Below are positions 4,508-17,599 of a stretch of DNA of 64,000 nt, one piece after another. Source of the DNA: Gautieria morchelliformis (taxonomy: Eukaryota; Basidiomycota; Agaricomycetes; Gomphales; Gomphaceae); the NCBI GenBank assembly GCA_015179125.1, contig WHVA01000022.1, positions 372,001 to 436,000 of the forward strand. Reading direction: 5' to 3'. The translations under genes were made by a program, and so were the position numbers. The notes below the pieces were generated by a model, which was not told where the DNA came from, made no database searches, and saw nothing but the letters and a program-made list of their open reading frames with translations. Positions within the stretch are counted from its first letter, which is position 1. Each line of letters starts with the position of its first letter.

Positions 4508-5020
4508 TCATTCCAAACACTTAAATAGCTGGCAATGTATGATAGAAACTTTAGGCAGTAAATCTCCATATTTGAGCTCTTGTTCTAGCCCATGAGGCTT
4601 ATGACTGGATAGGTGATATATCAGTCGGTGTTTAGTGTTGCTGTCACTGCATGTGGTGTTCGTGCATACAGCTGTAGTTGTTTTCCCATCTCCATTCTCT
4701 TTATGCTTCTCCACAAACCTCATGATCTCACACTGCGTACACAACCCTGTCGGCAAGGCTATTAACACTTTTCTGCCTTTGGGAGTGACTTTTGAGTCAG
4801 TTCTCATACTCTTAGACGAAATATCAGGTAATGTGGTTTCCTCTATGTGATTTGATCCCCTCTGACAAGATATACCCTTTAAGAGACTCATGTTAGGTCG
4901 AACTATGTTGTAGTGTGCAACATCAGGTCGATCAGATTCAGAATCCTCAGGTTTTTCTTGATCAGTTGTATTACTAGCTTCAGTAGAGGCTGTCATAAAA
5001 TTGGTACGAGCTTTGTCCAA
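4508..5020 (-). CDS. hypothetical protein, 170 aa, unrecognised
   Basis: An open minus-strand frame of 170 codons begins with MDKARTNF and has an acidic N-terminal part (DQEKPEDSESDRPD). A basic segment with paired cysteines follows (CTQCEIMRFVEKHKENGDGK, then CTNTTCSD), which could bind metal, though the spacing fits no family I know. It abuts the AT-rich island; the frame runs upstream almost to the island's left repeat, so the island may have interrupted a longer gene. Function unknown, and it may be transposon cargo. Confidence 0.35.
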   Translation of the reverse strand: MDKARTNFMTASTEASNTTDQEKPEDSESDRPDVAHYNIVRPNMSLLKGISCQRGSNHIEETTLPDISSKSMRTDSKVTPKGRKVLIALPTGLCTQCEIMRFVEKHKENGDGKTTTAVCTNTTCSDSNTKHRLIYHLSSHKPHGLEQELKYGDLLPKVSIIHCQLFKCLE

Positions 5021-5047
5021 GTTTTCTTCAGTCTCACTGTCCGTATT

Positions 5048-5554
5048 GGAGGATATTTATAATGGTTATGTAATACAGCATATATGAGTATTAATAACAA
5101 CATATAGGAATATATAGTAGTATTTATAAGGAGAATAATAGATGTTATTAGATGATTCTGTATATATTTAAACATCTCGAAGATATATATACATATGAGA
5201 GAGTATTAGACTACAAGATAGAGTAACAGATACTTGGAGAGATACTTGTAACAGATATGAGTAGGAGTATTAGTATTACTAGTTATAATGAGAGAGTATT
5301 AGACTACCATATGGAGTAATAGTAGTTGTGTAGATATTTGTAATATATATGAATAGTTATAATGATATAGTGTATATTAAGAGTGGGTAGAAAAAATAAG
5401 AAGAGACGCAAAAATTGGCATCGGCGTTCTCGTCGGCGGAGCGGCCGCTCGGGGAGGGACAAAATCAAAATTATTTATAGCCCAACAATAAGATTGGCAT
5501 ATAATTTTGTCCTCTTCTTTTCTATAATTTGAGAATAAAATGGGTGAAGCTACA
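5048..5554 (+). repeat. left direct terminal repeat of the AT-rich island
   Basis: A 507-bp sequence is repeated with few differences at 11676-12204. It is AT-rich apart from a GC-rich core near 5415-5460 that holds the perfect palindrome GAGCGGCCGCTC. Its ends are not TG...CA, it has no adjoining primer-binding site or polypurine tract, and no RT lies between the copies. A classical LTR is therefore unlikely. Confidence 0.85.
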
Positions 5555-5571
5555 CTAGAATAGAAGTTAAA

Positions 5572-6315
5572 TTGTATGGTGATGAAATACATTCTATGAA
5601 CTTCTATATTGATACTTTTAATCAAATGAAGGAAGTATTCAGAGGTTGCAAATTCTATAAGGTCTCTTTTGAGGACCAGTGGAAACAGCTAGTTAGAAAC
5701 ATTTATAATAAGGAAGTAATAATGGTATATTTGGAAAAAGAGAAGTTCTTTGCATATTGTCACTGGTGGAACTCTCAAACTAGTAAAATACAAGGAGGTT
5801 CTCAGAAAAAAGTCTATAAAAAACATGTTCCACTACTAGTTTCTAACTATAGTTTTAATGGAACTACTACCAAGCTTATAACGATTGTTAATAATGATAC
5901 AATAGTTGAAGAATATAAGAGAACAGTTAACAATATTACTCTCATTCCAAGTCCTAGAGGATCCTTATATCCTCAAGTACAAAGTAAACTATTACCAGAA
6001 GACATGGGAATAATTAGTTATAGGGGGATTAGAATTGGATGGTCAGATGGGCGAATAACAGTGGACAGTTCTCCTCTTGCACCTATTGAGAAACTAGAAG
6101 AGAATGGTAATAATGAGTTAAGAAATGTTACAGATCTCCTAGTATCACATTATAAAGCAGGACATTCTATACTTACTACTGATACTATTTACAAAGTTAT
6201 AGCTAAAGGTTCTCTCTATTATAGAGGAGATAAATGTACTGTAATAGAAGCTAAACATAGAGAAGGAGAGATACTAAAAGTACGATGCGGAAGGATACTA
6301 GAAGACTTCTTATAA
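5572..6315 (+). CDS. hypothetical protein, 247 aa, AT-rich island
   Basis: An intronless frame of 247 codons starts 18 bp after the left terminal repeat. The N-terminal half is rich in aromatic and basic residues (MNFYIDTFNQMKEVFRGCKF, then FFAYCHWWNSQ). The C-terminal part contains LYYRGDKCTVIEAKHREGEI, a small beta-rich segment. There is no signal peptide or clear membrane helix. I do not recognise the family. Codon use is AT-biased like the rest of the island, so it probably arrived with it. Confidence 0.6.
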   Translation: MYGDEIHSMNFYIDTFNQMKEVFRGCKFYKVSFEDQWKQLVRNIYNKEVIMVYLEKEKFFAYCHWWNSQTSKIQGGSQKKVYKKHVPLLVSNYSFNGTTTKLITIVNNDTIVEEYKRTVNNITLIPSPRGSLYPQVQSKLLPEDMGIISYRGIRIGWSDGRITVDSSPLAPIEKLEENGNNELRNVTDLLVSHYKAGHSILTTDTIYKVIAKGSLYYRGDKCTVIEAKHREGEILKVRCGRILEDFL

Positions 6316-6398
6316 AATGTAACTCATACTATATATTTTAAGACAGGTTCAATAGTACATACCAATAGGAAAAAAGATCTTACAGTTGAAATATATAA

Positions 6399-6747
6399 TT
6401 GATAAATATATCGATTGTTTTAAAATATACAACAATGTATTGCCTTGATACTCTGATAATACTGATAATAGATTTTACAGAAGAGGAAAAGAATCAACTA
6501 TATAGCATAATAGTATTTAATCTCTGTGCAGATAGTAGGATGAGAAATATTGTTATGATGTTTATAGAGATGAGTATGACAACTATAAAACAAGGAAGAT
6601 GCCCATCTAAGGAAGAATATACTGGATATGATGTGTATCTTTATAATATGTAGAGAATATTGGTTTGAGGAAACTATGGATAAACTGGGGATTAATGAAG
6701 AAATGTCCGATCAACTTCTCCAGGTAGTTAGAGAGGGTCAGTTTTAA
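6399..6747 (+). pseudogene. small hypothetical protein, apparently frameshifted
   Basis: The first part (6399-6653) encodes 84 aa including DFTEEEKNQLYSIIVFNLC and ends YDVYLYNM. An overlapping second frame continues from about 6631 to 6747 with EETMDKLGINEEMSDQLLQ and ends GQF. The two together look like one short helical protein split by a frameshift. The stop lies about 12 bp before the palindrome, so the gene converges on it. No family recognised. Confidence 0.4.
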
Positions 6748-6758
6748 TGAGTAATACC

Positions 6759-7254
6759 AATATAAAGTGGTACACTTCTCCCATAGTACTGTATTTATTT
6801 AAAAATGATATGTTATTTGTAGTAAAAGCATGGTGTGTCATCGTAGCTTTGCTATGGGCTTAAGGGGGGTCCTTTTGAGGACCTTCTTCTTTCCTAATAT
6901 TTTTTAATATATTTACCACCACTCTATTTCACTCACAATCTTTCATAGTCATATCTACATAATTTTATGATATAAAATATTATATAATAAACATCACATA
7001 GCATAATTTCACATAGCATAATTATAGCAAAAATATTTTATATCATAAAATTATGTAGATATGACTATGAAAGATTGAGAGTGAAATAGAGTGGTGGTAA
7101 ATATATTAAAAAATATTAGGAAAGAAGAAGGTCCTCAAAAGGACACCCCTTAAGCCCATAGCAAAGCTACGATGACACACCATGCTTTTACTACAAATAA
7201 CATATCATTTTTAAATAAATACAGTACTATGGGAGAAGTGTACCACTTTATATT
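6759..7254. repeat. 222-bp near-perfect inverted repeat (palindrome)
   Basis: The left arm 6759-6980 and right arm 7033-7254 are reverse complements with only about two mismatches, separated by a 52-bp spacer. The spacer itself has a direct repeat of CACATAGCATAATT. The palindrome lies between two convergent genes. A transcript through it would fold into a long double-stranded hairpin. Confidence 0.95.
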
Positions 7255-7262
7255 ATTTTCTA

Positions 7263-7289
7263 GGCGGATGCTCACAACTTTTTATTACC
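7263..7289 (+). repeat. 27-bp inverted motif, inner copy
   Basis: The motif starts GGCGGATGCTCACAAC and is the exact reverse complement of 12205-12231. It overlaps the stop codon of the adjacent minus-strand 228-aa gene. As a pair, the two copies bracket a 4969-bp segment holding the transposase, like terminal inverted repeats. The flanking triplets are CTA on the left and CTT on the right, close to but not an exact 3-bp target duplication. Confidence 0.8.
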
Positions 7290-7971
7290 TCATTCCAGTA
7301 TATTTAGTTTCTTCTAAAATATACTCCATATAACCTGTTGGATCTACAAATAGATTGTGAATTCTAGATCCCAAGATCGTCATGACATCACAGCTTTCTA
7401 GCATTTGAACAAATTTATTATAGACTTTTATTTTCATAGATCGATCAGAATTATAAAAAGAAATACAATTATCTCCGACTTTTCTTCTATCATCTAGTAT
7501 ATCATTAGGTTTTACTTCTTGCTCTTCTATTATATAGTTTCTTACATCTTTACGTATTGTGATATAAGGAACATCTTGGGTTATATCTATATCATGAAGA
7601 ATTATATCATCACATATAATTTCCTTGATAGAATTAAGTACTTTTTCTAGAGAAATTGAAGATAAGGAAATCTTAAAACAGTAATACTGGGTACCTATTG
7701 GGGCTATATCATCATTCTTTAAAGTACCGTGTCGGAGTAATTTAATTTGGAATGAGCTGTTGAAAAGAGCCTTACACCTTTTCTGTATGTAGATTCTATG
7801 ATCTGTCCCTATAGACCATAATATTGTATTATCACAAAAGATTGGATTGGATGATTCTAAGGAGGGTGTAAAATATTTTCTTCCACAGGTATAATCTACA
7901 TTGAATACAGCGGCTTGAGATTCTCTCATAAACACTTCTATGCATTTTTTCAGATGAGCCTTGTGTGACAT
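7285..7971 (-). CDS. hypothetical protein, 228 aa; possible replication-initiator-like fold
   Basis: A single open frame encodes 228 aa. Two segments look conserved: DIDITQD at about residues 127-133 and KIKVYNKFVQMLES at about 180-193, the latter followed by GSRIHNLF. An Asp-x-Thr block followed by a Tyr-Asn-Lys block is reminiscent of Rep_trans-type rolling-circle initiators. I could not place the other family motifs, so this is only a suggestion. It lies just downstream of the transposase gene on the same strand, about 65 bp apart, and its stop overlaps the 27-bp motif. Confidence 0.6.
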   Translation of the reverse strand: MSHKAHLKKCIEVFMRESQAAVFNVDYTCGRKYFTPSLESSNPIFCDNTILWSIGTDHRIYIQKRCKALFNSSFQIKLLRHGTLKNDDIAPIGTQYYCFKISLSSISLEKVLNSIKEIICDDIILHDIDITQDVPYITIRKDVRNYIIEEQEVKPNDILDDRRKVGDNCISFYNSDRSMKIKVYNKFVQMLESCDVMTILGSRIHNLFVDPTGYMEYILEETKYTGMR

Positions 7972-8035
7972 CTGAGTTGCTCATCATATTTCAGATTTTT
8001 AAAAAGTCATTTTATATACACAGGAGATTTAACAA

Positions 8036-9396
8036 TTATTGCCTGTCCCAATATTCCTGTATACATTCCTCTGAATTAAAGTTATTAACATGTTCCCATG
8101 TAGTTTTTTTATATCCTTTCCATTTGGCATGATATCTAACATGCCTTCCAACTCCTTTATGATTTAAAATCTTTTCAACCTCATAGGTTTCATCCATTTC
8201 TTCATCAGAATCATCATTAAAACTTTCTAATATCTTGTTTTGATGTTTACTCATTTCATCAAAACTATTAGTTGTTTCCTTTAATGTAGTAATCATATAT
8301 AATTCTATATCAGGGTCCACATTACGAGAATAATCAAATCTATCTTCTAGCCATAATAATTGTTGAGAAGATGGTTGTATATTACCTAGATCTACAAACT
8401 TCTTAATATTTAATAATAAACATGCTAGTTTAAATTGCAAGTTAAAGATAGTATAGTCTGAGGACCTAATAGATCTTCTATTATTAAACTTTTCGAATAT
8501 GGTTCCTATTTCTCCAAAGAACCCTTCTATTGATGATCTAAAACTTCCAAACATCTCATTATATTTCTTTTCATCCTCTGATAACTCTATATTTCTCATT
8601 TTACGTATTGGACAGCAGAAGTTTCTTTCTTTCAAATTACTTTCTTCTACTATTTGCTTTATGAATAAAGTATAGCCTCCATCAACAGCCATACAATCAT
8701 ACTTTTCTATCTTGTCTTGTATTTTCATCTTCTTAAGCATCACTCCATCTGCATTGTTTTTACATGGAGCTGATTCAGATATGAAAAGGACCATTCCATT
8801 AATATCAATGCATACTTGGGTGCGAATCCCAGCTTTCTTAAGTTTAAAGGAGTATCCATCTCCTGACCTAGTTCCAATCTTCTTTCCTCTAGTATCATGA
8901 CCATCTAGGAATATAGTTATTGTCTTAAATAATGATGGATTTTTTATTTTTGCTGATAGTATTCTTAACCTTATATTTGAGAACATTTCATGTAGTAAAT
9001 TTGTTATTTCCTCATCTAGTTCACCATTAGGACTATTTTCACAACCATAGAAGCTCTTATGAATATCATGGAAACTACTTTGAGGTATAAAGTTCCCATT
9101 TCACTATATGTAACGCCTTTTAGAAGATGGTATAGTATTAATAAACCCTTCTCTACATTGTTATAAGGACCCGGATGGTATTTAAATGGGTATAAGACTA
9201 CAAGAAAGAAGAATACGGGTATTATACCAAGTTTATTCATTACTGTTTCTTTAATATGTTTCATATCACATATATCCTTTATATCAGTTCTATGATATTT
9301 GGATGGCTTCATTTCAGGCCATGGCAGATCAAGGAATTGCCAGTGCCTTTTCATTAACTTGGTAAATTCCTTATTAAGATGGGATTCTAAAGACAT
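8036..9396 (-). CDS. PIF/Harbinger-like (DDE_Tnp_4) transposase with C-terminal chromodomain, split by a frameshift
   Basis: The main frame (8036-8986, 316 aa) shows the DDE layout of Harbinger transposases: FLDGHDTRG (first Asp), QVCIDINGMVLFISES, MAVDGGYTLFI (second Asp) and FRSSIEGFFGEIGTIF (Glu). Residues about 267-316 are a chromodomain (YEVEKILNHKG...YHAKWKGYKKTTWEHV...CIQEYWDRQ), which could steer insertion to methylated-histone chromatin. The upstream frame (9016-9396) supplies the N-terminal helical region, including LLILYHLLKGVTYSEMGTLY. The main frame is also open upstream of its Met, reading SSFHDIHKSFYGCENSPNGE. A frameshift near 9085 therefore separates the two, and the copy is probably inactive. 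Confidence 0.85.
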
Positions 9397-9708
9397 TGAA
9401 AGAGTGTGATGTTATTGAAAGAGTATGATTAGAGTGTGTGATTAAAGAGTGTGATGTGCTATATAAATATTAATATAAGATATACATTCAGTTTATCAAA
9501 TGTGTTGAATGATAGATTTAGAAGATAGAGAAAAATATAAAACCAATAACCAGATACTCCTCAGGTAATTTTTTTTCTTAAGAACCTTTCTAATATCTCA
9601 AAGCATGAGCTTTTAAAGATAGATCATCTTTGTTATACTTTGTCAAACTATTTGCTATATTACACCATATGACTCATACATTATCTCATCAAGCTGTAAA
9701 ACGTAATA
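9397..9708. other. AT-rich intergenic stretch
   Basis: Nothing coding is seen. The left part holds short repeats of GAGTGTGAT-like sequence (about 9405-9455) just upstream of the transposase frame, which could be promoter or transposase-binding sequence. Confidence 0.4.
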
Positions 9709-9779
9709 GACCAAATAGCTTAGTTGGTAAAGCACCCTATATACTAATGGGGTCCCAGGTTTGAACCCTGGTCTGGTTA
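9709..9779 (+). tRNA. tRNA-like sequence with A and B boxes, anticodon uncertain
   Basis: The 71-nt stretch folds as a cloverleaf. The 7-bp acceptor stem has one G-U and one mismatch. The D stem is GCTT/AAGC and the T stem is CCAGG/CCTGG. TAGCTTAGTTGG matches the polymerase III A box, and GGTTTGAACCC is a B box with one change. The anticodon arm is abnormal, with an 8-nt loop or two mismatches, and the variable region is only 2 nt, so I cannot name the amino acid. It may be a decayed tRNA or the head of a SINE. Confidence 0.6.
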
Positions 9780-9882
9780 ATTGAAAATTCAAACGGGGTT
9801 TGTAGTACTTCTGAGTATATGCTTAAGCATATATTTGACAATATCACAGACCTCCTTTGAATCTTCTATGATTTTTAATGGT

Positions 9883-10455
9883 CTATATAAAATAATAGGA
9901 GTTGGACCTTTTTTTTACATTTGTTGTTTTGTAAACTTTCATTCTTCCATCTTGTAGTACAAGTATGCCATAGACTGTGACTTTTTCTTGTGGTTGAGAG
10001 TAGTACATTGTAGCATATAATGCAAACATCATACCTTTTATCAGACTATTATATATATAGCATTCATTACACTTATCATATGCTACAACTAAAGGATACT
10101 TTGTTTTACCATTCAATATAACCTTTGCAATCATTGTACAATGGGAATCAGGACTTAACACCCATTGCAAAACCCTAAAACCTGAGATGCTCCCTATTAT
10201 TAAATTATATAGTGCATCAGAACTATAGTGATTTGGAAGGGTAAGCCATTGTGCACTAGAAACTGACCATTGTTCAAAGAAAACCAGTTTGTTATCACAG
10301 ACGAAGGTTTCTGTGTTAATTATCAAGCCTCCCATTTCAATGACAGACCTGTCTCCGGTTGCCTTGATAGCATCTGGTTCAAAGGTTTGGGTACTACCAA
10401 AAAAGGTAGATATCTTACGAACAATGCTTTTCATAGTAAGCATCATGTCTTTCAT
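9883..10455 (-). CDS. hypothetical protein, 190 aa, AT-rich island
   Basis: An intronless frame of 190 codons. The N-terminus is basic and amphipathic (MKDMMLTMKSIVRKISTFF). The middle has mixed beta-type segments (WSVSSAQWLTLPNHY, KTKYPLVVAYDKCNECYIYN) and the C-terminus is strongly basic (KTTNVKKRSNSYYFI). No catalytic motif or family recognised. Codon use matches the island. It is divergently arranged from the PD-(D/E)XK-like gene starting about 150 bp away, so the gap 10456-10607 may hold a shared promoter. Confidence 0.55.
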   Translation of the reverse strand: MKDMMLTMKSIVRKISTFFGSTQTFEPDAIKATGDRSVIEMGGLIINTETFVCDNKLVFFEQWSVSSAQWLTLPNHYSSDALYNLIIGSISGFRVLQWVLSPDSHCTMIAKVILNGKTKYPLVVAYDKCNECYIYNSLIKGMMFALYATMYYSQPQEKVTVYGILVLQDGRMKVYKTTNVKKRSNSYYFI

Positions 10456-10607
10456 CTATATGAATTGACAACTTTGTGAAATCAGTTTTTATGTAGTATG
10501 TTGTTAAGCATGATATTTCTATGAAAGTTTTTATAAAATCTAGAATCCAATTCTGAAAATGGATTCTGTAAAATATCATCTTCTAGGAAAAATTACTAAG
10601 AATTATA

Positions 10608-11258
10608 ATGAATATAGAAATATATTATAAGGAACAATCAGAGATGAATACAAAAGCTATTTTGAAAACTTCTATCGATGTTGCTGCAAACGAATATACC
10701 AATCCCAATAATCTAGAATGTTTTTGGTATGCTCCGTGGAATATAATTCTCATTGGTTGCTTTCTTGAGGGTATGGTCATAACTCCTCAGCATGCCTTTG
10801 TTTATGCTACCGAGAAAAGGGATGGGGAGGATAATGTGAGAAATTTAATTCCTGATTTTACCGTTACTAAATATATTAAGAAAAATAACTTTATAAATAG
10901 TACTACACATTTAATAGTAGAAATAAAAAGAAGTATTAGAAGCAAAGATGAACTTGGAAGAATCTTTAAAGAAACTCAAGAGCAACTTAAAAGTCAGATA
11001 ACAGTATTATTCCTAGATACTAATTATAAAACTGTATGTGGAATAGTTGCCATAGGAGGTTATTGGAAACTCTTTAGATATCAAAATTTAAACTATAAGA
11101 AGAAACCCAAAAAACCTAGAAGTTCTTGGGATAATGATAGTTATGGTAAAAAAGATGAGGTAATAAAAAATATTGAAGAACATGGGCTATTTGATATTTG
11201 TAGTGATAAATGTGAGGAGGAGCTTATCAAGTTGAAAAAATTTGTTACACCAAATTGA
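10608..11258 (+). CDS. PD-(D/E)XK nuclease-like protein, 216 aa
   Basis: The frame contains the pattern Pro82-Asp83-Phe followed 22 residues later by Glu105-x-Lys107 (LIPDFTV ... HLIVEIKRS). This is the signature core of PD-(D/E)XK nuclease-like folds, in which Asp, Glu and Lys coordinate metal and activate water. A helix with KETQEQLKSQ and a hydrophobic strand (ITVLFLDTN) follow, as expected for the alpha-beta-beta-beta-alpha core. Proteins of this type are common in basidiomycete mobile regions. It could help replication or excision of the island, or be passive cargo. The motif is clear; the activity is inferred. Confidence 0.65.
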   Translation: MNIEIYYKEQSEMNTKAILKTSIDVAANEYTNPNNLECFWYAPWNIILIGCFLEGMVITPQHAFVYATEKRDGEDNVRNLIPDFTVTKYIKKNNFINSTTHLIVEIKRSIRSKDELGRIFKETQEQLKSQITVLFLDTNYKTVCGIVAIGGYWKLFRYQNLNYKKKPKKPRSSWDNDSYGKKDEVIKNIEEHGLFDICSDKCEEELIKLKKFVTPN

Positions 11259-11289
11259 TATACTTACAGTTCTTTAAAGGATATCAGAT

Positions 11290-11640
11290 ATGTACTTCAG
11301 AACTCTAGTAGGATGGAAAGTAACAGAAGAGAAGATGATGGAACAATGTACTAGACTAGGAATGGAGGATGTTGAAAACGATTCTGATTATCTCAGTAAA
11401 CTAATTGGAGTTATAAAAGGTCTTGACTGTCCTATAGTAAGGTTCTCTTTAGAGAGACAAGAAGATAGAAAAGAAAAAGGTAAAGATATCCCTTTCATAT
11501 TAACAATATATGAAGGTCATAAGAGAAAAGGAGAAGTAGATGTAGACAAGATACTAAGTAGGTTTCCTAAAATATTTGAAAGAATAAAGAAAGATCTTGG
11601 AATAAAAGGAGAACCTCAATTCTTTTTAGGAGAGCCATAG
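11290..11640 (+). CDS. hypothetical protein, 116 aa, AT-rich island
   Basis: The frame begins 31 bp after the PD-(D/E)XK-like gene on the same strand, so the two may be co-expressed. It is highly charged (SLERQEDRKEKGKD, IYEGHKRKGEVDVDK) with helical ends, has no membrane segment or signal peptide, and ends about 35 bp before the right terminal repeat. Not recognised; it could be an accessory partner of the upstream protein. Confidence 0.5.
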   Translation: MYFRTLVGWKVTEEKMMEQCTRLGMEDVENDSDYLSKLIGVIKGLDCPIVRFSLERQEDRKEKGKDIPFILTIYEGHKRKGEVDVDKILSRFPKIFERIKKDLGIKGEPQFFLGEP

Positions 11641-11675
11641 AATATAGCATTTATAGTTTTTAAAATACTCCCCTA

Positions 11676-12204
11676 GGAGGATATTCATAATGGTTATGTA
11701 ATACAGCATATATGAGTATATAATATATACTATAAGAGTATTAATAACAACATATAGGAATATATAGTAGTATTTATAAGGAGAATAATAGATGTTATTA
11801 GATGATTCTGTATATATTTAAACATCTCGAAGATATATATACATATGAGAGAGTATTAGACTACAAGATAGAGTAACAGATACTTGGAGAGATACTTGTA
11901 ACAGATATGAGTAGGAGTATTAGTATTACTAGTTATAATGAGAGAGTATTAGACTACCATATAGAGTAATAGTAGTTGTATAGATATTTGTAATATATAT
12001 GAATAGTTATAATGATATAGTGTATATTAAAAGCGGGTAGAAAAAATAAGAAGAGACGTAAAAATTGGCATCGGCGTTCTCGTCGGCGGAGCGGCCGCTC
12101 GGGGAGGGACAAAATCAAAATTATTTATAGCCCAACAATAAGATTGGCATATACTTTTGTCCTCTTCTTTTCTATAATTTGAGAATAAAATGGGTGAAGC
12201 TACA
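11676..12204 (+). repeat. right direct terminal repeat of the AT-rich island
   Basis: This is the second copy of the 5048-5554 repeat, same orientation. It is longer mainly because of an extra ~22-bp AT segment near 11717-11740. Only scattered substitutions separate the copies. It runs straight into the 27-bp motif at 12205-12231 and then copia sequence. Confidence 0.85.
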
Positions 12205-12231
12205 GGTAATAAAAAGTTGTGAGCATCCGCC
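12205..12231 (-). repeat. 27-bp inverted motif, right end of the island
   Basis: This is the exact reverse complement of 7263-7289. It immediately follows the right direct repeat and marks the junction with copia pol: the next codons read L-T-I-T-A-E-N-Q, aligning with the intact copia RT near 41970. This is the best-defined boundary of the island. Confidence 0.8.
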
Positions 12232-13732
12232 CTTACCATCACAGCTGAGAATCAGTCAGTCCTGGACGAAATCAAATGAGATCTTGCTCAGGTCTTCAGT
12301 ATGAAAGATCTAGGCGAGATTCATTGGCTATTGAACCTTAAAATCGAAAGAGACTGGCAGAAGAAAACCATTGCAATTTCACAACCCGCATACATCGAGA
12401 AGATCATCAAAAAATTCAATCTCGAAGATGCGAAGACTTATGCTACGCCTCTTGATCCAGCCGTTAAATTATCTAAAGACCAATGTCCTTCTACAGAGAG
12501 AGGCAAGAAAGCCATGTCGAAGATTCCATACAGGCAAGCTATAGGATCACTGATGTGGGCAGCTGTAGCCACTCGACCTGAAATTGCATTTGCGGTGTCA
12601 TTGCTCTCACAATTCCTCGAAAATCCAGGTGGCACACATTGGAATGCAGTTAAATGTGTCTTTGAATATTTGAAAGGCACGAAGCATTACAAACTCACAC
12701 TTGGAAGAAATCGAGACGGCTTGATGGGGTATTCAGATGCGGATTGGGGTTCACAGAGTCATAGGCGTTCGTATTCAGCATACTTATTTCAGATTGATGG
12801 GGGCACTGTTTCATGGAGTTGCCAGAAACAGTTGATAGTAGCCCTCTCATGAACTGAAGCCGAATTCATCACCCTGACCCATGCGGGCAAAGAGGCTCTT
12901 TGGATGTGCCATTTTATTTCTGAAATATTCCAACCGCTGAACAGACCCATCTAAGTTTATTCAGACAATCAATCAGTCATTGCAATCACGTATGGCACTC
13001 AACAACACACAAGAACCAAACATTTCGACATCAGATTATATTTCCTTCGAGATATGATCAAAAATCAAGAAGCCAAGCTCGTTTATTTGCCAACAGAACA
13101 AACGTTGGCAGATATTCTCACTAAAGGACTTCCTAGTCCTAGAGTGAAGATCCTCAACGAGAAGCTTGGAATATATTAGGCTTGAGGGGGCGTGTTGGGT
13201 GCATTTATGCTCCTGCACCAAAATCAAGCCAAATAGATTCGACCATTCGGATTTCTTTTGATTTTTGACTTGAAACCATGCTGACATTCAGTCTATGATT
13301 TGTCAAATTTTTCTTTGATTTTTCGAAGCTGTATTTCTACTTCTTTTCATGTTCTGTCCAACCAACCCTTTGTGGGTGGTTGTGGACAAGTTTCCTTTTG
13401 AGCTGCGGCTGTTCACTGACGCGCTACGTTCTATGGGCGCTTAGCATGGCACACCGTGGCATCACGGGCGCTAAAGCGCCGGCTAGTAGTACATGCGCAT
13501 GAGACACATTTCCCCCCTCTCTCAGTGACAACTAAATTCACTGAGAGAGGCAAGTAAATTAGTCTTGTTTCTTTTCGATTTGTTGACCTAGAAATCCTGT
13601 ATTGAATTAATTTCTAGGTAGTGTATAATATATTTACAGTGACAACTAAATTCACTGAGAGAGTGAATTAATTTCTAGTCTTCTTTTGAGCACCAAGTCC
13701 GAACCTACTGCCTATAATTCCTGTCCTCTACA
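12232..13732 (+). mobile_element. Ty1/copia element, 3' part with LTR (family C), fossil
   Basis: Directly after the AT-rich island the sequence enters copia RT (MKDLGEIHWLLNLKIERDW, then PYRQAIGSLMWAA). It continues through RNase H (TEAEFITLTHAGKEALW, later THTRTKHFDIRL-like sequence) to a polypurine tract and the LTR at 13193. The 5' half is missing. The coding part is close to the copy near 42000. It is broken in a small number of places. The LTR is nearly identical to the solo LTR at 18788-19328, suggesting recent activity of the family. Confidence 0.9.
13193..13732 (+). repeat. copia family C LTR, 540 bp
   Basis: It begins TGTTGGGTGCATTTATG and ends CTCTACA, after a purine tract (TTGAGGGGGCG). 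It contains a 12-bp perfect stem with a 9-nt loop (13517-13549), a repeat of that motif about 100 bp downstream, and a second stem formed by ACCTAGAAAT and ATTTCTAGGT between them. Confidence 0.9.
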
Positions 13733-14248
13733 TGCAACCCTAATTCTTATTCCGGTATATCACTGTTAAGACCTGTTCCTGTCTGGGCCTGAGGCCTCGG
13801 CCTCGGCTCTTGCTCGGGAACCTTTGGCTTAACTCGGGTTCCCTATCGGTTCATCATTCACCCTGATCCCCTTTCCTAGATAGTCCTGTTCCATTTCTGA
13901 TGATCGTCCGTCAACCCTGCTTCCTACTCAATACAGGCATTGATGCCCTCATTCCGTTCCTTGCAATTAGTATATAAACCCCCCGTCATGTACGCTAATT
14001 CCTCAGTTCTGATATGGACTTAGATTCCTCATATCTTTCCGCTCCTCTGTCTGACCTCATTCCGAACCTCGGCTTCTAGCCGAATCGTTCCCGAACCCAT
14101 TTCCCGAAATTAGGGCGGAACACTGTAGTGGGCGCAGCCTATGAAGTTGAAGCCAAGCCCTCTGTTCCCGAACCTCGACTAATCTCGGCTAGGCCCTCAG
14201 GTTGAGTCTTAAGTATGACTTATGTTCTTAATAGTATATCAGAACTCT
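13733..14248. other. unassigned sequence, possibly retroelement 3' remnant
   Basis: No open frame of note. The stretch is rich in CCTCGG and CTCGGCT-like words similar in flavour to the gag region of the gypsy element that follows, so it may be a leftover of a related element. I cannot support a more precise call. Confidence 0.25.
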
Positions 14249-15734
14249 TGTTTTGGAACCCTTCAAGACTTTGGTGTTATTGCTAACACTTCAATCTATC
14301 AGAACGTGTCGTTTACAAGACTCAAAGAATATTAAACAATGCTGCAGCACAACTCCGGAAATAATTTAATATTTGTACCTTGGTTGCAATCCGCGTAAAA
14401 ACTAGTCCAAGTTAATACGGATGGAAGGCAATGCGTTTCTTAGCAGCACTGAACAATAAACTAAAAGACTGTAGGTTCAAGGACACTATCGGGGTCCAAG
14501 CGTATTCAAAAATATAAAGGAATGTACTTAGCAGGCGAGTTTATAAATGGACTGCCCTGATAATCTACCAGCGCACAGCAATAAAACGAGAGGCAAAGAA
14601 TAGAATCTAAAGCGGCTTTTACGAGTAACAGGAATTGACTTGTGAAAGATATTAACCAGGAAAATCAACTGATCAACTCTCTCGGGTATTGGAGTGTGAA
14701 TGGCAAGACTATCAATTGACAGACTCACTCTGTAGAATTACATCTGGAGGATTAGTCTAGGTGGCTAAGCAGAAAAGTCTACTTAACAAGGAATTAGACA
14801 CTAAAGTAAGTGAATAACCCTAGCTGGGATTAGCAGCTTAGTAAGATGCAAGTCACATGAGTCACATGTAGGATAGAAGCAGTAGATTGCTAGATTGGAT
14901 CATTCTCCTAGGGGGTCAGAATGGCCTCCTTTTATATTGTAAATTACACAGGATTACATAAAATGGGGAGCTTCTATCTATTAGGCGAGTGATGTCATAA
15001 GTAAATATTTGCGCAGCTAAAACACACCCTCGTAACTATAGTGGTGTGTTTGTGCAAGAAAATTAAGAATAGATAGCCAATCACCTTCCCTGATTTGCAC
15101 TGCCCAGCATAGCCTTACACAGCCCAGCATAGCCTTGCATAGCCCTGCACAGCCCTATGATGTCAAGGGTCCTATTTCAGGGGTTGTGGCACTAAGCTTG
15201 GAGGCTCAGCATCCAATAAGATTGCTTGATTATGCACCCTAGTTTTGGCTCTGCATATCATTGGGCAGTCTTGCACACAGCCTTACACAGCCATGGTTGC
15301 TATAAGGCAAGTCATGTGTCTGCTGGGTTTGAACTATATTTAAGTGTACAGGCTTGTGTAAGCTGCACCGGATATTCCCAATCTCACCAGCTGAGATTGA
15401 AAGAGCCAAAGTGTCGGATTTGTGGGTGTTTGAGGACGTGCGGCTCTGAATAAGCGCGTTCGAGGATCGCTCCGGTCGGAGTTTAAAATTGAGCGCCGAT
15501 GACAAAGTTATGGACTCTCATGGGTTCATAGCCTTTGTCAAACACAATAAAGCAGTTTTGAGCCAAGGAGGTCAGGACAATTGGCGAAAAAATGCAAGAA
15601 AATTCAAGGAATATTCTAAAAACAGTTCCCCATCAAAGCTGCGCGTATTGGCTGATGTTAAGATGGGAAAAAGGTTTTTACAAACTTTTTAATGCTTTTT
15701 TCGAGATTTTTAAACTGAAAAGCTGGTTCCTACA
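14249..15734 (+). repeat. gypsy family T LTR (5' LTR), about 1486 bp
   Basis: It begins TGTTTTGGAACCCTTCAAG and ends TTCCTACA just before the Gag leader. It aligns over most of its length with the solo LTR at 20890-22384, but lacks that copy's TGAGTCA array, having a single TGAGTCA at 14858. Confidence 0.8.
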
Positions 15735-15759
15735 CAACTCTCCACACACAGTTGTTCGA

Positions 15760-17311
15760 TATGCCTATCACTAGATCTTACACCTGTGCCTGCGGTAGCC
15801 GCGTCACCCCGACCATAGAGGCCCACCGTGCACTAAGTGCTTCACACCACCCAGAAAACCCCCCATTCCGTCACCGCTATGACAGCCCCCCTCCATCTTC
15901 GAACTCGTCTCAACACCGAGTTATAGGTGTCGGTCACAGACATATCAGCGAGGTTCCCGAAGATCCCCGCGGTGAGTCCCCCGAGCCTAGCGACCCCAGA
16001 GGCGGCGGTCATGGCGGCAATAATGACTCCGGTTCTGAGCACAATTCTGATCCTGATGCAGAGGCCCCGAGACTGAACCCCAACCTGAATGCAGAGGCAG
16101 ACGGCGAGGAACAGGTTGGGCGCCATATGCTTGGGGCTTTGGAAAAGCTCGCTGACAATGGACTCAGTGGAGGAGACCGTGCCGATTCAAAGGCGAAACT
16201 TTGGGAGCCCGACCAATTCAATGGTTCGGACCTGAAAAAACTCTGAGGTTTCCTTCTCCAGTGCATATTGAATTTCCATGCCAAACCCCAAGCTTTCCGA
16301 GATGGTTCTGCAAAAGTCAACTATGTCCTGTCCTTCCTCACACGGACAGCTCTTGATTATTTTGAGCCCTTCCTCACTGACGACCCCATTAATGAGCCCC
16401 TCTGGGCCTCGGATCATGGCATCTTCATGGAAGAGCTTTACCTGAACTTAGGCCCCTATGACCAGGCTGCCGATGCCGAGGTAGAGCTCGAAAACCTCAT
16501 CATGAAGGACAGTCACAAGGGGACTCGGTTTTTTGTCGACTTCTACAGACTTGCATCCATGCTTCAGCACAATGACTCGGCTTTGCATCGCCGAGCTTAC
16601 TTTGCTTTGCCAAAGCGAATCAAAGACGAAATGGTGCATTTTGACAAACCCCGATCCCTTGACGACCTCCGAGATCTGGCCCAGAAAATTGGCCAAAGGT
16701 ATTGGGAACGCCGCAGTGAAGCCTCTTGCAAGACTCAATCCGCACCCAAACCCGAGGCCAAGGACAAGTCCAACCAAAACCGAGCCCCTCAGAACAATGA
16801 CCGACGTCAAGGTCAAAGTTCCAGCAACTCCAATGCCAATGCTGGTAATAGCAACCACGGCAAAGGCAAGGACAAGCACAAAGGGAATAATGCATCCAAG
16901 GGTCAGAAAAAACCCGACTACACTAACAAGCTCGGCAAGGATGGCAAACTCACACTTGAAGAATGCCAGTGTCGCATGGATAACAACCTCTGCCTAGTTT
17001 GTGCGCAGAGTGGCCACCATGTGAAAGAGTGCCTGAAAGTCACGTCGGCTCGGGCTGCATCCGCCTCTGTGCAAACCGAGGGTCACATTGACTCAACTTG
17101 CACAGTAGGGGAGGTAAGAGTCAACGCTTCTGCTCTCTTTTCTCTGAACTCTCTTGTAATTAGTTTGTCCTCGTCTCTTGTCCCGAACCAGAATTTTAAA
17201 GCATTAGTAGATTCCGGCTCTACCCATTGTTTCATAGAATCCATCTTCGTCTGTAAATACACTCCAAACCCGTTCCATAGACCCAATCCCACTCCATTTA
17301 TTCGATGGTAG
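15760..17311 (+). pseudogene. gypsy Gag and protease start (fossil)
   Basis: The Pro/Ser-rich N-terminus is followed by a helical capsid-like domain (MNFHAKPQAFRDG ... YDQAADAEVELENLI), a low-complexity Asn/Ser/Lys-rich linker and one CCHC knuckle. A retroviral-type aspartic protease active site, LVDSGSTHC, lies near 17200. This is the structural polyprotein and protease start of the family T element; fossil. Confidence 0.8.
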
Positions 17312-17599
17312 TACAAATTTGGTAATTACTGAAGCTGTAGAGCTACCTATCCATTTCCCCGATGGTCACACCCATTCCGTAGACTTTATGTCACCCCCCT
17401 TGATTCGTCTGTTTCGGTAGTTCTCAGACACAACTGGCTCACCTGCTACAATCCGTTGATTGACTGGGTATTGGGCAGTATTACTTTCTGAACTTCCCTT
17501 CTGGGCAGTCCTGTGGACCCCCGCCGGCTTTGGCTCGCGCCGCAACAGCTGAGCCACCCCCGAGTCTGGAGGCTCCTCTGGTTACCCTCCTTAATGCTG

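Follow-up and report, generated by a model that had tools for sequence, protein, structure and literature searches.

We analysed a window of 64,000 nucleotides from the fungus Gautieria morchelliformis (contig WHVA01000022.1, positions 372,001 to 436,000), in which an AT-rich island occupies positions 5048-12231. The GC content of the island was 0.29-0.32 per 1-kb block (5001-12000) and about 0.30 overall, whereas the five blocks on its left reached 0.45-0.59 and the five on its right 0.41-0.51. Thus the sharp change of composition that an earlier note on this DNA had described is present across both borders. The direct repeats of about 0.5 kb at both ends were also found as that note described them (5048-5554 and 11676-12231, 98.7% identity where aligned, a displaced stretch of 28 nt being restored for the alignment), and so was the lack of a reverse transcriptase (RT), which had no match among the open reading frames (ORFs) scanned. 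Between the repeats lie genes for a transposase with a chromodomain, for a PD-(D/E)XK-like protein (N) and for the proteins CA, D and E, together with a tRNA-like gene. The island very probably belongs to a real family of mobile DNA transposons with a DDE_Tnp_4 transposase and the layout LTDR-INT-LTDR, where LTDR is a long terminal direct repeat and INT the part between the repeats, and the copy in the window would be a damaged member of it. Whole units and single LTDRs lie at sites with 3-bp target site duplications (TSDs), and uninterrupted paralogous sites exist elsewhere.

The copy searches were confined to this one genome (122 Mb, 1113 contigs). Its fungal nature shows in 26 matches to hydrophobins and 135 to Plavaka, many of these being single exons, whereas 14 control genomes gave none; Plavaka points to basidiomycetes. 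The transposase stretch returned 42 rows: the window, five close copies at 94-98% (C154, C695, C248, C279 and C538, which make up family A with the window copy), three fragments, and 33 rows of a family B, mostly at 67-71% DNA identity, some of which are pieces of one copy. C695 and C248 have common flanks and were counted as one insertion. Full-length transposase copies numbered about 6 in family A and 32 in family B. The family B transposase is 50% identical to that of family A and the LTDR sequences are unrelated; only the ends are common to them (GGAGGATATTCA...TGAGCATCCGCC versus GGRGGATGTTTA...TGAACATCCTCC, with variants), not the interiors. Regarding the N stretch, it returned 33 rows, and 30 N loci were fetched with flanks of up to 1.5 kb. 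E was encoded within 1.5 kb in 29 of them and D in 24, and 26 run into the right LTDR of family A or B, some of these truncated. The transposase was at the expected upstream place and orientation in 13 of the 30 N contigs (4 of family A and 9 of family B). Therefore, several copies in this genome have the same gene set and the same borders, and the genes belong with the direct repeats to one element, as the earlier note had supposed.

In the canonical layout each LTDR has its own short inverted ends, of the form GG..CC and with about 12 of 15 bases inverted, and the inner junctions LTDR/TAG...CTA/LTDR are common to families A and B. The family A element in C695 (L070 839-7269) measures 6431 bp, the family B element in C701 spans 9430-17519 and its LTDRs measure 570 and 646 bp, and the family B elements with both ends read range from 6482 to 8514 bp (C165 apart). 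With up to 3 mismatches allowed, the left-end motif of family A and the right-end motif of family B each occur at 363 genome sites, the reversed-pattern control giving 0 in both cases; these counts take in the LTDRs of gene-bearing copies, and solo LTDRs are still far more numerous. By length, the family B LTDRs are mainly of two classes (about 555-574 bp and 646-647 bp), the difference being a stretch of about 76 bp. We also noticed that the family B element of C701 (L076, L032, L074, L053 and L075) lies between what appear to be the two ends of one Gypsy retrotransposon, with a gag-like start on one side, a pol end on the other, outer repeats 98% similar and the middle missing, as judged by eye from the ORFs.

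Exact 3-bp TSDs were read at 17 of 20 solo B LTDRs, 6 of 7 solo A LTDRs and 5 of 11 whole elements, which gives 28 of the 38 insertions read. The 20 solo B LTDRs came from 40 listed places and were those of full length and not then known to adjoin element genes; the 11 whole elements are those with both outer ends read, the genes of C307 and the right halves of C260 and C284 being unread. The exact duplications of whole elements were CAA in C695, TAT in C345, TTA in C260, CTT in C284 and GTT in C837, this last one assuming a changed last base of the right LTDR. When the right flanks were re-dealt 20000 times, the mean number of exact matches was 1.35 (solo B), 0.85 (solo A) and 0.99 (whole elements), and the observed counts were reached in 0, 0.04% and 0.05% of the deals respectively. 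Empty sites, a check that the earlier note had proposed, were found for a solo LTDR and for two whole elements. The joined flanks of the solo at C155 were crossed by 37 of the 41 matches listed, seven of them at 91-98%, those of the whole element C837 had two element-free paralogs at 90%, and those of C345 had one at 73%. The joined flanks of C695 had one match at 71%, too diverged for base-by-base reading.

Within an element, the two LTDRs are more similar to one another than to the LTDRs of other elements. In eight family B elements the mean identity of the partners was 98.27% versus 95.30% after re-pairing, a value reached by none of 20000 re-pairings, and in 6 of the 8 the partner of the left LTDR was the closest among all 34 other LTDRs. 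The exceptions were C497, where the LTDRs are now in facing orientation, and C701, whose discordant pair and missing TSD are as expected of a recombinant. In C837 both LTDRs carry a near-end change that is absent from the other 33 LTDRs. This pairing by element is an LTR-like behaviour, and it is equally what gene conversion of one repeat by the other would produce. Furthermore, in C202 a single LTDR (C202:7553-8117; L035 and L051) lies between two INTs, the outer ends of which are unread, and this arrangement is a tandem or circle-like form.

The copy in the window is rearranged and broken: it carries an inversion, and its transposase is frameshifted. The earlier note had described a second set of inverted ends of 27 bp bracketing only part of the island. 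These inverted ends are real, 28 nt long and 100% identical (7263-7290 and 12204-12231), but they are not the ends of another element: the final 28 nt of the left LTDR, moved by the 1.7-kb inversion, now lie at 7290-7263. The inversion thus produced the apparent second set and split a 466-aa gene, and an inner element bounded by these ends was rejected, since they are a scar of the inversion in this copy. When 5555-7290 is re-inverted, the ORFs C and A join as the 466-aa frame that is seen in L070, and the 28 nt return to the left repeat. The left LTDR of the window is also without a 22-nt stretch present in the right LTDR, as are some solos. The features of the window copy are collected in the table.

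Table. Features of the element copy at 5048-12231 of the window
Feature	Position	Strand	Remarks
Left LTDR, first ~507 nt	5048..5554	+	last 28 nt displaced to 7290-7263
C-terminal half of CA protein, severed by inversion	5554..6312	+	replication-initiator candidate of the earlier note
Inverted segment	5555..7290	.	opposite orientation to 5/5 other family A copies examined (4 independent insertions)
Small ORF	6435..6650	+	one frame with its continuation in L070, L072, L073
Palindrome, 223-bp arms	6759..7254	.	adjoins left LTDR in canonical orientation
N-terminal half of 466-aa CA protein	7288..7980	-	one open frame in copy L070
Transposase, DDE_Tnp_4 and C-terminal chromodomain (about 8042-8185)	8039..9411	-	two frames in window copy (overlap 9016-9100)
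tRNA-like gene, irregular anticodon arm	9709..9779	+	kept in families A and B
D protein	9886..10455	-	no family; complete copies have 190-223 aa
N protein, PD-(D/E)XK-like	10587..11255	+	PDF...VEIK invariant in 13/13
E protein	11278..11637	+	120-139 aa, no family
Inner junction CTA/LTDR	11673..11675	+	counterpart LTDR/TAG at 7262-7260, minus strand because of the inversion
Right LTDR, 556 nt	11676..12231	+	begins GGAGGATATTCA, ends TGAGCATCCGCC, imperfect inverted ends

Regarding the palindrome, both arms were present in L070 and L071 (one insertion), one in L073 and none in L069 and L072. Farther along the window, at 18231-39102, a repeat of ~0.9 kb occurs in several copies and both orientations, and the same repeat flanks the element in L072.

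Pfam matched the transposase to DDE_Tnp_4 (2.1e-9) and Chromo (6e-6) in the window copy, which agrees with the Harbinger-like transposase with chromodomain of the earlier note, and to the same families in a family B copy (1.8e-12 and 2.3e-9). DDE_Tnp_4 was above the Pfam cut-off in the window, L072 and L032, Chromo also passed its cut-off, and a PDB sequence search returned chromodomains. The transposase is a single frame of 455 aa in L072 and of 464 aa in several family B copies. Among nine aligned copies, LDGHD is kept in eight, and DGGY and the E motif in all nine; from the Pfam family we take these to be the catalytic residues. The PD-(D/E)XK-like protein also stood, as D90, E112 and K114 of the N motif are invariant in the 13 aligned copies, and PADLOC gave a PD_DExK match (4.2e-4) for the family B copy L047 and none for the window copy. 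N had no Pfam family and no PDB sequence match, and its structural model (pLDDT 46.3) had 0 matches at E<=0.001 in a PDB fold search.

The replication initiator proposed earlier found no support: it is one half of CA, a protein without assigned family, for which we found DUF2666 below the Pfam cut-off only and weak PDB sequence matches (0.38 and up). More distant relatives of CA occur elsewhere in the genome at 40-53%; at C180:208154-209887 a distant CA homolog abuts a family B LTDR, which hints at a third arrangement or family. In 16 other aligned copies the E protein has 84-97% identity with that of the window copy, and the searches gave it no family, only weak PDB sequence matches (0.13, 0.28) and a poor model (pLDDT 54.1). 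No family was found for D, nothing was above the Pfam cut-off for a 342-aa ORF of a family B copy, and the best match in a PHROGs search was 0.035. The tRNA-like sequence of the earlier note scored 40.5 bits with the Rfam tRNA model against a gathering score of 29. In 6 of the 7 copies compared, the similarity of this gene exceeds that of its flanks, by a small margin in two, and in L073 it is lower; inside a DNA transposon it is perhaps an RNA polymerase III promoter.

The genes of the two families do not have the same history. Between A and B, the synonymous divergence (dS) was 2.65-3.0, that is, saturated, in the transposase, 0.54-0.57 in N, 0.21-0.26 in E and 0.22-0.23 in D. The ratio of nonsynonymous to synonymous divergence (dN/dS) was 0.12-0.14 in the transposase (dS being saturated), 0.34 in N and 0.13-0.20 in E. 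As the divergence of the D-N-E block (window 9883-11637) is far lower than that of the transposase, the families appear to have swapped this module, while transposase and LTDR stay matched. Actually, L069 has a family A transposase and a D gene 96% identical to that of the family B copy C701. The matching of transposase and LTDR is what we would expect if the transposase reads the LTDR ends.

In the mechanism that we propose, the DDE transposase would recognise the GGNGGAT...ATCCNCC ends. When the outermost pair of ends is cut out and pasted, the whole element would move, and when the two ends of one LTDR are used, a short passenger would move. The LTDRs might be kept alike by mutual recombination, or by passage through a single-LTDR intermediate, circular or in tandem. 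The PD-(D/E)XK-like N may make the break that starts this homogenisation, and the chromodomain may steer insertion.

Regarding known systems, this layout is known once before in the literature searched. According to the available part of Kojima and Bao 2022 (PMC9587614), KolobokP comprises LTDR-INT-LTDR transposons from 7 animal phyla with a TSD of 3-5 bp, so that the "new element type" of the earlier note was too strong. As far as that source goes, KolobokP also has short inverted ends of its own on each LTDR, many solo LTDRs with TSD, two LTDR length classes, and an INT that holds a DDD/E transposase and a nuclease (here nuclease-like by sequence). Nevertheless, it has a Kolobok transposase and a His-Me homing endonuclease, whereas here we found DDE_Tnp_4 with a chromodomain and a PD-(D/E)XK-like protein; the two transposases are set apart by the Pfam family match. 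No Pfam match to a His-Me finger nuclease was obtained in the ORFs scanned. Moreover, KolobokP is animal, and the fungal element also has CA, D, E and the tRNA-like gene. KolobokP multimers, (LTDR-INT)n-LTDR, tandem forms with a common LTDR, are reported between TSDs, and here the one INT-LTDR-INT junction of C202 may be of a similar kind. The layout is found here with what is probably another transposase superfamily and in another kingdom.

The available text on the PHIS superfamily (PMC4482050) describes PIF/Harbinger elements that resemble ours in the DDE_Tnp_4 transposase, the 3-bp TSD and the short inverted ends starting with G. However, the fungal element differs in its long direct terminal repeats, its C-terminal chromodomain and its 6.4-8.5 kb. 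The canonical TSD is TWA, and here most were other sequences, with TTA or TAA in 4 of the 28 exact TSDs. The Myb/SANT partner, the canonical second ORF, had no match among the ORFs scanned, the 342-aa family B ORF included. ISL2EU, as described in the same source, also joins a transposase of this superfamily to an exonuclease-type second protein, but with a 2-bp AT TSD and YqaJ, whereas here the TSD is 3 bp and the ORFs scanned had no YqaJ match. In the parts available, two papers on fungal and brown-algal Harbinger elements (PMC12730594 and PMC12477816) do not mention long direct terminal repeats, and three others (PMC5182062, PMC3212892 and PMC1925063) use the same repeat phrase but mean short repeats. 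LTR retrotransposons likewise have solos and direct repeats paired by element, but here there is no RT in the ORFs scanned, the inverted ends read GG..CC and the transposase is of the DDE_Tnp_4 type. In bacterial composite transposons and IS26-type units the transposase gene lies in the repeats, and here it lies in the cargo. The likeness to them consists of two directly repeated mobile ends around a cargo (PMC9587614, available part). We found no further case of this layout in the literature searched, outside of which lay Repbase, preprints and most subscription journals. A transposase of PIF/Harbinger type with the KolobokP layout therefore looks like an independent second case.

Several observations weigh against a mobile family as we describe it. 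Six of the 11 whole elements are without an exact TSD: two of three bases match in C448 (CTT/CTC), C165 (CAT/AAT), C307 (TAC/TAT) and the window (ATT/CTT), and none in C133 (ATA/TAT) and C701 (GAT/TTA). The ends of C165 are 21 kb apart and parts of C260, C284 and C307 are unread, so some of the 11 are perhaps not single autonomous elements. The solo L005 sits at the edge of a repeat, where the empty-site test is uninformative. Furthermore, the first catalytic D is a G in L072, which alone in family A keeps the transposase in a single frame, close transposase pairs reach a dN/dS of 0.26-0.53, and the constraint on D between families is weak or none (0.46-0.87). To call N a nuclease is to follow a motif and one weak profile match, with a poor model and no fold match. 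Finally, the evidence comes from one genome and the movement itself was not observed.

The pairing of repeats by element, the abundant solos and the repeat common to two INTs could also suggest a non-autonomous LTR retrotransposon, similar to a large retrotransposon derivative (LARD), that acquired a DNA transposase and other genes and whose LTRs were made by an RT supplied in trans. We consider this very unlikely, as the ORFs scanned gave no RT match, the ends are inverted and read GG..CC rather than TG..CA, the TSD is 3 bp, the DDE residues are kept in 8 of 9 aligned transposases and dN/dS between families is low. Even less credible is a fortuitous composite, in which two copies of a Harbinger miniature inverted-repeat element surround unrelated DNA and the genes were captured separately. 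The hundreds of lone LTDRs, with their own TSD in those sampled, and the separate history of D-N-E would fit it, but in about 40 transposase-bearing loci of two families the inner junctions agree at every place where they were read, 5 of 11 units are enclosed whole by a single outer TSD, and LTDR partners pair by element. To an organelle, plasmid or viral insertion, or an assembly join, we give hardly any weight: the strong AT bias, the tRNA-like gene, the long palindrome and several orphan ORFs speak for it, but there are many copies on many contigs, with TSDs and empty sites. As for a viral origin, pattern-based scans of viral contigs, which start from short peptide patterns that distant kin can escape, gave no relatives for the transposase, CA or E, although INT might ultimately derive from a plasmid or a virus.

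A rival that we take more seriously, although we lean against it, accepts the same element and derives the solo LTDRs from recombination between LTDRs only, like solo LTRs, so that lone LTDRs never transpose. The same 3-bp TSD would remain after recombination, and LTDRs do recombine, as the discordant pair of C701 without TSD indicates. Nevertheless, the 363 end-motif sites per family far exceed the about 6 A and 32 B full-length transposase copies, each LTDR has both ends needed by a transposase, and in KolobokP the excision of solos was inferred from footprints (PMC9587614, available part).

Beyond a DNA transposon family with paired LTDRs, we can suggest, tentatively and as a rather unlikely extension, that composite-like DNA transposons of eukaryotes arose a second time, as an independent lineage with an LTR-like life without reverse transcription. 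In such a lineage a single template would serve to rebuild both repeats in each cycle, by way of a circle or concatemer that carries one LTDR, and the PD-(D/E)XK nuclease would open the repeat. Paired repeats and a nuclease would then be a combination that evolved twice, with unrelated DDE transposases. The description of KolobokP found no other DNA transposon like it (PMC9587614, available part). With a fungal family of Harbinger type that has this layout and also a nuclease-like gene, paired direct ends would be a repeated solution rather than an oddity, and the roles of the nuclease and of the repeats can be compared. For annotators there is also a warning, as such elements and their solos resemble LTR retrotransposons without RT.

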